From contig NZ_CP030028.1 in assembly GCF_003586445.1 (NCBI RefSeq), forward strand, positions 1,936,501 through 2,000,500: DNA of 64,000 nt, read 5' to 3'. A program made the position numbers and the translations under genes. Below are positions 48,677 through 50,975 of the stretch, piece by piece. Below the pieces are notes generated by a model that saw only the letters and a list, made by a program, of their open reading frames with translations, did not search any database and was not told where the DNA came from. Numbering within the stretch: position 1 is the first letter of the stretch; every line of letters starts with the position of its first letter. This stretch comes from Bacillus sp. Y1. GTDB taxonomy: Bacteria > Bacillota > Bacilli > Bacillales > Cytobacillaceae.

Positions 48677-48706
48677 TTTACATAGTAATTGGATATACTA
48701 TACAAT
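48677..48706 (+). promoter_or_regulatory. Promoter of the MutS2-like leader transcript
   Basis: TTTACA (48677-48682) with TATACA (48699-48704, 16 bp) or TACAAT (48701-48706, 18 bp). Transcription would start near 48712, leaving a ~335-nt leader before the MutS2-like start codon. Confidence 0.6.
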
Positions 48707-48747
48707 GAAAATGCAACCCATTAAATTTTGATAAGGGAGTATGTTTT

Positions 48748-48771
48748 ATGTTAGGTGTCGTTCTTAACTAA
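48748..48771 (+). CDS. Leader peptide uORF (MLGVVLN)
   Basis: ATG 48748 is eight bases after AAGGGAG (48733-48739). It codes for seven residues and stops at TAA 48769-48771. The last four codons lie inside the 5' arm of the 11-bp stem, so a ribosome stalled here would open that stem. A competing ATG at 48741 is only one base from the ribosome site. Confidence 0.6.
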   Translation: MLGVVLN

Positions 48772-48913
48772 TCCAATCAATTGGATACGAGCATTCCGGT
48801 TTGTTTTCTAACCTTGAAAATTTCAAGGTTTTAGGAAGCTTATTTATCTATGGCCGCGAATGTAGTTAAGAACAATGGTCAAAAACAAGCATACTATCCT
48901 TAGCCGAGAGTGT

Positions 48914-48947
48914 AGCTGTGCACCACTGTGTAACAGCTTTTTATTTT
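48914..48947 (+). terminator. Leader terminator 1
   Basis: AGCTGT (48914-48919) pairs with ACAGCT (48933-48938), followed by TTTTTATTTT. It would end a short leader RNA of ~230 nt. Confidence 0.7.
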
Positions 48948-48996
48948 GGTTAAATAGTCTGAACAGAATGCTTTTTAATAGGATTCTGTTTACTTG

Positions 48997-49033
48997 CCGC
49001 GTTGACTCGTTCAACGCGGTTATTTTTATTTTT
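48997..49033 (+). terminator. Leader terminator 2
   Basis: CCGCGTTGA (48997-49005) pairs perfectly with TCAACGCGG (49011-49019), followed by TTATTTTTATTTTT. It ends just before the AGGAGG of the MutS2-like gene, so transcription of the gene requires antitermination. Confidence 0.9.
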
Positions 49034-49046
49034 AGGAGGAAAAAAG

Positions 49047-50975
49047 TTGAATAATCATACGTTTGAAACATTGCAATTTGAAGTGATTAAAGAGGAAATT
49101 GCCCATTATGCGTTAACCAACCAAGGAAAAGAAAAGGTGTTACAACTCACACCTTCCTTTCATTTAATACAAATCCAATCATGGATCGATGAGGTAACTG
49201 AAGCAGTGGAGATCATGAAAAAGAGCTCAAGTGTACCAGTTCACGGACTAGAAGGAATTGATACTTTACTAAATAGTATCAATAAAGGGGTTGCTCTTCG
49301 TGCTGACATATTAATGAAGCTTCATGAATTTTTAGATTGCTGTGGGAAAATGAGACGCTTTATGAAAGATAAGGAGTTTATGGCCCCTCGAGTCACAAGC
49401 TATATTTACTCCATTGATGAATTGCCTGGATTGGCAGAGGAAATTAATCGCTGTATCCGAAACGGAGTTGTGGACGATTACGCAAGTAAGGAATTACTTA
49501 AAATTAGAAAACAATTGGCAATACAAGAGGAGCGATTAAAAGAAAAACTTCAACAAATCGTCCGATCATCCAAACTAAAAACCTATTTGCAGGAAAGTGT
49601 TATCAGTCAAAGAGATGGAAGATACGTGATACCTGTGAAAAAGGAATATCGTCAAAAAGTAAAAGGGACGGTTCTAGATACTTCTGCCTCAGGATCGACG
49701 TTATTTATTGAGCCTGAAGAAGTTACCACTTACCAAGACCAACTTACCTGGATAAAGATGGATGAAGAAGCAGAAACTCAAAAGATTTTAATGTATCTTA
49801 CCGGGTTAGTCGAAGGAAAAGAACAGCAAATCCGATTGGCAGTCGAAACAATGGTTCACTATGACTTTTTGTTTGCCAAGGCAAAGTTTAGCCGAGCAAT
49901 CGATGGGAGAAGTGTATCCATAAACGAATCACACTTTATTGAATTAATTGAAGCAAGACATCCTTTAATAGGTAAGAATGTTGTCCCATTATACTTTAAG
50001 CTAGGTGCACCTGAAAATGCGTTAGTCATTACAGGTCCTAACACGGGTGGGAAAACGGTTGTCATAAAAACCGTTGGACTCTTAACACTAATGGCCCAAG
50101 CGGGTTTACACTTACCGGTTGCAGAAGGCAGTTCAGTGAGTATTTTTCAAAATATCTTAGTGGATATTGGGGATGGACAGAGTATTTTAGAAAACCTAAG
50201 TACCTTTAGTTCACGAATCGTAAATATTATTGACATTTTAAAAGAAGCCAATGATCGTACGTTAGTTTTATTGGATGAATTAGGTTCAGGAACTGATCCC
50301 GCTGAAGGAATGGGGCTTGCAACAGCAATCCTGGAGCAACTCTATAAGAAGGGAGCGACGTTATTAGCAACCACTCATTACAGTGAAATCAAAGAGTTTG
50401 CAGATCACCAGGATGGATTCATTAACGGATCGATGGAATTTGACTTAGACACTCTTCGTCCAACGTATCGTTTAATTATAGGAAAGGGAGGAGAGAGCCA
50501 AGCGTTTGCGATTGCGTTAAAGCTAGGTATTCACCCGAAAATCATCGAACGAGCTCATCAAATAACCTATAAAGAAGAAAAGGTGTATCCAGAATCGCAT
50601 GTATTACTTCAGGAAAAAATAGAACTCGAGAAGCAAATCATAATCAATAAATATCAATCGAGAGAAAAAGTAATGAAAGTTTCAAATCCTTCAGTACAAA
50701 AGTTTAATCAGGGTGATAATGTCATCGTCTCTCCTGAAAATGTGTTTGGTATTGTGTATAAAGGTCCAGACGAAAAAGGGAACTACATTGTTCAAATAAA
50801 AGGAGAAAAGGGATCTTATAACCATAAGCGTTTAACCCTTCATATTGAAGCAAGTGAGTTGTATCCGCCAGATTATGATTTCGATATTATATTTCAAACA
50901 AAAGAAAATCGAAAGTTAGATAAAATGTTATCAAAGAGACATATGGAGGGACAAAGCATTAATCACAAAAGTTAA
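49047..50975 (+). CDS. MutS2-like ATPase lacking the Smr domain
   Basis: A 642-residue MutS2-family ATPase. The clamp/lever region (1-~300) includes VIPVKKEYRQKVKGTVLDTS and GSTLFIEPEEV. Walker A GPNTGGKT is at 330-337, Walker B LVLLDELGSGTDP is centred on Asp410, and TTHYSEIKEFAD and GKGGESQAFAIALKLGI follow. A KOW-like segment (FNQGDNVIVSPENVFGIVYK) closes it. Canonical Bacillus MutS2 is ~785 residues and ends in an Smr nuclease domain, absent here. MutS2 splits collided ribosomes in B. subtilis, so this paralogue may act on the ribosome without cutting RNA. TTG start seven bases after AGGAGG. Confidence 0.9.
   Translation: MNNHTFETLQFEVIKEEIAHYALTNQGKEKVLQLTPSFHLIQIQSWIDEVTEAVEIMKKSSSVPVHGLEGIDTLLNSINKGVALRADILMKLHEFLDCCGKMRRFMKDKEFMAPRVTSYIYSIDELPGLAEEINRCIRNGVVDDYASKELLKIRKQLAIQEERLKEKLQQIVRSSKLKTYLQESVISQRDGRYVIPVKKEYRQKVKGTVLDTSASGSTLFIEPEEVTTYQDQLTWIKMDEEAETQKILMYLTGLVEGKEQQIRLAVETMVHYDFLFAKAKFSRAIDGRSVSINESHFIELIEARHPLIGKNVVPLYFKLGAPENALVITGPNTGGKTVVIKTVGLLTLMAQAGLHLPVAEGSSVSIFQNILVDIGDGQSILENLSTFSSRIVNIIDILKEANDRTLVLLDELGSGTDPAEGMGLATAILEQLYKKGATLLATTHYSEIKEFADHQDGFINGSMEFDLDTLRPTYRLIIGKGGESQAFAIALKLGIHPKIIERAHQITYKEEKVYPESHVLLQEKIELEKQIIINKYQSREKVMKVSNPSVQKFNQGDNVIVSPENVFGIVYKGPDEKGNYIVQIKGEKGSYNHKRLTLHIEASELYPPDYDFDIIFQTKENRKLDKMLSKRHMEGQSINHKS

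Follow-up and report, generated by a model that had tools for sequence, protein, structure and literature searches.

Locus and gene organization

The window, the whole stretch of 64,000 nucleotides that was analyzed, lies within a single 5.03-Mb contig of Bacillus sp. Y1. It contains a gene for a MutS2-like protein of 642 amino acids (49047..50975, TTG start), preceded by a Shine-Dalgarno (SD) sequence AGGAGG at 49034..49039; this gene and all features described below are on the forward (+) strand. All elements that an initial annotation had noted upstream of the gene were found in place, between 48735 and 49046. From 5′ to 3′ the order is an SD sequence, a short upstream open reading frame (uORF), hairpin H2, stem P3 with an inner hairpin, the sequence TTATTT, the 3′ arm of stem P1, two terminator-like hairpins, the SD sequence of the gene and the TTG codon. 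The predicted folding energy of the leader is −107.3 kcal/mol as compared to a mean of −73.9 kcal/mol for dinucleotide shuffles (z = −6.44), and none of 100 shuffles equaled it.

The uORF (48748..48771) has seven codons and a stop, ATG TTA GGT GTC GTT CTT AAC TAA, encoding MLGVVLN. The well-spaced ribosome site attributed to it in the initial annotation is indeed present (GGGAG at 48735-48739, spacing 8 nt), as is the perfect 11-bp stem said to use its 3′ codons. In this stem, P1, the 5′ arm GTTCTTAACTA (48760..48770) comprises codons 5-7 and the first two bases of the stop codon, and the 3′ arm is TAGTTAAGAAC (48863..48873). The ribosome binding site of the uORF is itself the 5′ arm (48732..48746) of a predicted stem P0, with its partner at 48887-48902. 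The small hairpin H2 is predicted at the uORF stop (48771..48786). It is followed by P3 (48791..48863; arms 48791-48801 and 48852-48863), which encloses a candidate pause hairpin at 48803-48839, and by TTATTT (48840..48845), which fits the NusG pause motif TTNTTT.

Two hairpins with T-rich tracts complete the leader. T1 (48914..48938, −10.6 kcal/mol) is followed by its tract, whereas T2 (48996..49033, −15.6 kcal/mol) consists of a hairpin at 48996-49020 and a tract that runs into AGGAGG (49034-49039). The earlier claim of two terminators, of which the second reaches the ribosome site of the gene, thus holds at the level of terminator-like hairpins and T-rich tracts; a stricter pattern scan of the window reported the second one only. 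Upstream of the uORF, a candidate sigma-A promoter (TTTACA, 18 nt, TACAAT; 48677..48706) matches the consensus at 10 of 12 positions, such sites being no commoner in the window than in shuffled sequences. Searching the 110 nt upstream of the uORF gave a promoter match at 9 or more of the 12 positions in 92 of 101 representative leaders, in a count made without a shuffle control. Rfam 15 gave no match in the window at the curated score; the best weak match had an E of 0.06 and 22.3 bits against a cut-off of 60.

The encoded protein is a MutS2 paralogue without SMR domain

The protein had been described as an Smr-less MutS2 homologue, and profiles, alignment and a predicted model agree with this. 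The NCBIfam profile mutS2 (TIGR01069) matched only up to position 517 of 790, Pfam MutS_V matched as well, and a C-terminal SMR domain was not found in the paralogue by NCBIfam, Pfam or alignment with the genome's own MutS2. The latter, canonical MutS2 is encoded by a separate gene (784 aa) and is 37% identical to the paralogue in the alignment. The paralogue has kept the core/lever, clamp and ABC ATPase regions with intact Walker A and B motifs; its linker is shorter. In an AlphaFold2 model based on 44 sequences (mean pLDDT 80.4), residues 558-600 form a five-strand barrel, as expected for a KOW domain; Pfam KOW gave no match in the paralogue. Foldseek matched the model best to MutS2 structures, including one on a collided disome. 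Among 150 relatives from the collected loci, 147 have a length of 635-652 aa and three of 529-571 aa, and the nearest named relative found is from Robertmurraya korlensis (93% protein identity). Residues 604-642 (window positions 50856-50972) contain a conserved end, ELYPxDYDFDIIFxSKENRK, which lines up with the beginning of the MutS2 SMR domain and could be its remnant.

As described in PMC10897456, MutS2 of B. subtilis splits collided ribosomes, an activity that depends critically on the ATPase and is less affected by mutations in SMR or KOW, and cells without MutS2 are hypersensitive to ribosome-targeting drugs. Judged by its sequence, the paralogue probably splits stalled ribosomes. A large set of such genes currently carries the annotation 'endonuclease MutS2' or else 'DNA mismatch repair protein MutS', and their products probably perform neither of these roles.

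Distribution and conservation of the leader

The paralogue is present in 114 of 193 family genomes (threshold 1e-150) and in 174 of 397 order genomes (1e-125). Upstream DNA was taken from 110 of the 114 family genomes, leaving out G163, whose copy of the gene contains internal stops, and G167, G038 and G039, and from part of the order and class sets. Also left out were L008-L012 (35-40% identity, residues to 514 only) as canonical or remote MutS2, and L087 and L108, in which the protein match fell short of the start. After dropping duplicates, as judged by the last 200 nt, 225 leaders were reduced to 197.

The conservation of uORF and stems in relatives, on which the initial reading depended, was confirmed in this set. 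An SD-preceded uORF of seven codons is present in 187 of the 197 distinct leaders of the MutS2-like gene, using a search that imposed seven codons and set the start 12 nt before the core; searches without a fixed start also returned seven codons only, in 109 of 113 loci and in 173 of 180 loci. The 187 uORFs encode 33 different peptides in which codons 2-4 are variable, but 183 of them end in Val-Leu-Asn. Arg-Leu-Arg (RLR), the motif of macrolide-type leaders such as those of hflXr and erm, is absent from all 33 peptides. A class-wide search for the protein matched 68 of 398 genomes, and 30 loci, all from outside the order, were fetched. Every one of these has a seven-codon uORF ending in VLN, as found by a scan that required this length and a loose match to VLN, with the exact P1 3′ arm in 29. 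The VLN end itself is old.

In a diverged subfamily of the protein (40-43% identity) the uORF has seven codons in 18 of 20 leaders with peptides such as MSGVVSK, VSAVGSK and MSIAGVN, the ends being VSK, GSK or GVN. Length and architecture thus outlast the peptide, and the subfamily argues against a single strict peptide. In the same subfamily (L232-L234, L236-L251) the sequence GAAGATAC occurs within the leader in 19 of 20 cases, and 10 of 20 have a complement, GT[A/G]TCTTC, located 42-47 nt upstream of the gene start.

The ten leaders outside the 187 are of several kinds. Four (L232-L235) belong to the diverged subfamily and have a different seven-codon uORF; L191 and L192, filed as Listeria and Enterococcus phage contigs, have the six-codon uORFs MSVAGI and MSVVGI; and L016 is at a contig end. 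Core and stop of the uORF are altered in L106, breaking the seven-codon frame, while its relatives hold intact copies. In L014 and L220 the gene is present without the leader. For L014 (genome G187; 92.5% protein identity) no trace of the leader motifs was found in the 900 nt upstream of the gene, which is perhaps constitutive or under different control.

To the other side, the link of leader to gene was examined with the pattern GG-N11-ATG-N9-RTTCTTAACTAA, which occurs in 50 of 397 order genomes against one for the reversed control. This number is a lower bound since the pattern is blind to other SD spacings. The gene lies some 270-580 nt downstream of all 41 matches examined, and the remaining nine are, by coordinates, at most about 740 nt upstream of it, so that 50 of 50 precede the MutS2-like gene.

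The possibility that this is a mobile resistance gene was considered and dropped. Matches were found in 17 plasmid records, but in only four of them did a site span 80% or more of the query; three of those four plasmids (from Cytobacillus spongiae and two Paenibacillus) are 116 kb to 2.7 Mb in size and typed as non-mobilizable. A phage collection gave 20 matches, all unannotated. Two that were examined are wastewater contigs, and we infer the examined contigs to be bacterial DNA. In L191 and L192, unannotated contigs that look bacterial to us, the gene behind the six-codon uORF encodes an Smr-less MutS2 homologue with 37-38% identity.

The stems and terminators are conserved along with the uORF. 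The P1 arms are identical, GTTCTTAAC and GTTAAGAAC, in 171 of 187 leaders, which makes this stem nearly invariant; L227 has changes on both sides with Asn kept, and several leaders preserve a pair via G-U. Scanning all stem lengths for a hairpin with a T-rich tract predicted T2 in 187 of 187 leaders and T1 in 169. In 154 leaders the P1 3′ arm is preceded by TTNTTT, which in B. subtilis serves as the NusG pause motif, compared to a mean of 62.5 and a maximum of 73 in 100 shuffles, and the motif is missing from the searched stretch in the other 33.

Covariation and alternative pairings

For P0 and the two alternative pairings described below, covariation was measured by comparing the fit of a leader's own parts to that obtained with parts from other leaders. 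The test used 101 representatives, picked from the 187 by 8-mer overlap, and 88 for pairings with T1, which 13 of the representatives lack. P3 covaries (z = −27.4) and forms at least four pairs in 99 of 101 representatives, and H2 covaries as well (z = −10.2; at least four pairs in 92). For P0, tested as the uORF ribosome binding site against the 41 nt after the P1 3′ arm, the fit to the own partner gave z = −8.4, and the predicted folds contain at least four P0 pairs in 96 of 101 representatives, with P1 and P0 both forming. A separate match was seen in L105, L107, L196, L197 and L198, where CGCACGT near the SD of the gene, within the 90 nt that precede it, complements ACGTGCG on the 3′ side of H2, in five out of five leaders with that H2; a second control at the level of translation is possible there.

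The initial annotation had proposed pairing of CCGCG (48854-48858) with CGCGG (49015-49019) as an antiterminator. These segments are present in the window, but as a conserved element the pairing had to be abandoned since it is confined to 2 of the 187 leaders (L001 and L015). The data support another antiterminator, in which the freed P1 3′ arm pairs with T2 and the bases after this arm pair with T1. The first of these pairings, AT2, uses GAAC(AAT)GGTCAA (48870..48882), for which the partner 49002-49012 is available once P1 opens; in the window 48870-48873 pairs with 49009-49012 and 48877-48882 with 49002-49007. Tested with the last part of the P1 3′ arm and the next 9 nt against T2, it covaries with z = −8.0. 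The second, AT1, has its region at 48876..48901 and its partner in the T1 5′ arm (48908-48925) once P0 and P1 open; the 24 nt after the P1 3′ arm covary with the T1 5′ arm with z = −5.0. GAAC belongs to both AT2 and P1, and the region of AT1 extends into the P0 3′ arm (48887-48902), so that the two sets of pairings should be mutually exclusive.

For P0, AT1 and AT2 the observed value was not reached in any of 2000 permutations each, which were done without an ancestry model, and three control pairings (z = +1.2, −0.9 and +4.4) showed no covariation. The covariation is an average effect: the median rank of the own partner is only about 24th to 27th among 88-101 leaders because most leaders are alike. 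The longest uninterrupted AT2 helix has at least 6 bp in 85 of 101 representatives as compared to 59 of 101 for an upstream control, a modest margin in a weak test.

The effect of a ribosome on the uORF was modeled by folding nascent RNA, truncated at the point where roughly half of a terminator had emerged, with a cover over the uORF and 12 nt on either side of it (48736-48783 in the window). With half of T2 emerged, covering the uORF raised the median number of antiterminator pairs from 0.25 to 13.3, and 94 of 101 leaders gained at least two pairs, as compared to 2 of 101 when a control cover was placed elsewhere. The corresponding values for T1 were 3.0 and 11.0, with a gain in 73 of 88 leaders and in none with the control. 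In the window itself the numbers rose from 0.004 to 12.2 (T2) and from 0.55 to 12.1 (T1), and in the T2-half fold T1 still formed with the uORF covered. When the region of the P1 3′ arm was shuffled, four or more pairs were still gained in 43 of 101 leaders, with a median of 2.7 versus 13.3. For complete leaders at equilibrium the terminators win with or without the cover; under the cover T2 lost more than one pair in 6 of 101 and T1 in 15 of 88. The switch would therefore have to be kinetic.

Proposed mechanism

We consider it highly probable that this leader is a ribosome-mediated transcription attenuator in front of the MutS2 paralogue that would be opened by a ribosome stalled on the uORF. 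That reading, already put forward in the initial annotation, is strengthened by the deep conservation of uORF, stems and terminators and by the covariation of the alternative pairings. With the uORF unoccupied, its ribosome binding site and last codons would pair downstream in P0 and P1, and RNA polymerase would stop at T1 or T2. For the on state, RNA polymerase would pause past the uORF, probably in a NusG-dependent manner, while a ribosome stalled on the seven codons would cover P0 and P1. The freed 3′ arms could then base-pair with the leading halves of the newly emerging T1 and T2, allowing read-through into the gene. The product, a MutS2-type ATPase without SMR domain, probably splits stalled ribosomes and would thereby clear the sensor, providing negative feedback. 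In this way it would shut down its own leader, as has been reported for MsrD.

With the footprint size that we assume, P0 and part or all of the P1 5′ arm should be covered wherever on the seven codons a ribosome sits, so a stall at the start, within the uORF or at its stop would serve. By analogy with MsrDL, the constant VLN-stop hints at a late or termination stall. P1 and AT2 hold the same letters as VLN-stop, which makes the constraints on peptide and RNA inseparable.

Antibiotics are the presumed inducers. The same switch could respond to an internal fault in translation rather than to drugs, the uORF sensing slow initiation or termination or a shortage of free subunits and the MutS2-like factor balancing ribosome traffic. 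The age of VLN-stop fits this. So does the gene itself, which lies on the chromosome in almost every locus seen and occurs widely (in 114 of 193 and in 174 of 397 genomes), more like a housekeeping than an acquired resistance function. However, the closest designs, vmlR, hflXr and msrD, respond to antibiotics (PMC9226507, PMC6310831, PMC10314930), and the drug hypersensitivity reported for B. subtilis without MutS2 (PMC10897456) also points to drugs, which leaves the internal signal a possible but rather doubtful explanation.

Readings in which the uORF is not a stall sensor appear much less probable. The strongly conserved folded domain with covarying stems would suit a riboswitch or protein-binding leader, with the three-way junction of P1, H2 and P3 binding a ligand or protein and the uORF being incidental. 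Yet the frame, the SD sequence and the exact length of seven codons persist despite changes in the peptide, P1 consists of the last codons, and P3 has a different arm pair in each of 99 leaders, with no conserved pocket noticed beyond the U-rich motif; we regard a binding domain as unlikely. An amino-acid attenuator of the trp/leu type, sensing uncharged tRNA for Val, Leu or Asn, is very unlikely: these codons do end 183 of 187 uORFs within a terminator/antiterminator leader, but there is no run of a single codon, codons 2-4 vary, the diverged subfamily ends in VSK, GSK or GVN, and by homology the gene has no role with amino acids. We give hardly any credence to an independent small RNA that terminates at T1 or T2 and merely has the gene as its neighbor. 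Terminators do close the unit and a promoter-like site is found upstream in 92 of 101 representatives, but 50 of 50 pattern matches precede one and the same gene.

Returning to the attenuator, we lean towards a wider interpretation, namely that the leader represents a new and ancient Bacilli-wide class of stall sensors controlling an inducible ribosome-splitting factor. The uORF would report ribosomes that become stuck in their first rounds of translation, to be removed by the Smr-less MutS2 paralogue, giving a self-limiting circuit for antibiotic tolerance or ribosome homeostasis that is parallel but unrelated to the HflXr and ABC-F systems. If true, ribosome splitting by a MutS-type ATPase, itself demonstrated only recently (PMC10897456), would also be an inducible response, with a paralogue clade that is silent until the leader stalls a ribosome. 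The leader would furthermore be a ready reporter of translation trouble as these bacteria perceive it.

Comparison with known systems

We rate the principle as known, and the leader class and target gene as new, with a wide distribution. In open PubMed Central (bioRxiv not included), a search of titles and abstract openings found no paper on a leader or attenuator of MutS2 or on an SMR-less MutS2 paralogue. After ABC-F and HflX, the paralogue would be a third, unrelated type of protein among the ribosome-acting factors under stall-sensing attenuators.

The paralogue resembles B. subtilis MutS2 as described in PMC10897456 in its core/lever, clamp and ATPase with intact Walker motifs and in the KOW-like barrel of its model. 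It differs in having no SMR domain, a shorter linker and 642 residues, versus 784 in the genome's own MutS2.

A parallel in gene context is the Listeria hflXr (lmo0762) leader rli80, a uORF attenuator that precedes a homologue of a ribosome-splitting factor, the housekeeping version of which is also present (PMC6310831). The uORFC-6-1 motif precedes hflX in Bacillales (PMC8632094). As given in these sources, hflXr encodes an HflX GTPase and has a 14-codon uORF with an RLR motif, whereas the target here is a MutS2 paralogue and RLR is lacking. The msrD leader is similar in its very short uORF (MsrDL, MYLIFM), a stall that is possible at the stop, the bypass of a terminator and a product that suppresses its own induction; it differs in its peptide and its ABC-F gene, and no P0/P1-type architecture is described in the available part of PMC10314930.

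A similar design is that of the B. subtilis vmlR leader, in which the uORF lies in an anti-antiterminator stem and a pause hairpin is followed by the NusG motif TTATTT, an antiterminator and an intrinsic terminator (PMC9226507). There, a drug-stalled ribosome opens the stem, and TTATTT limits leakage and aids induction. According to the same source, vmlR has a uORF of three codons (MIN), one terminator and an ABC-F ATPase as target, whereas the leader described here has seven codons, two terminators in 169 of 187 cases and a MutS2 paralogue as its target.
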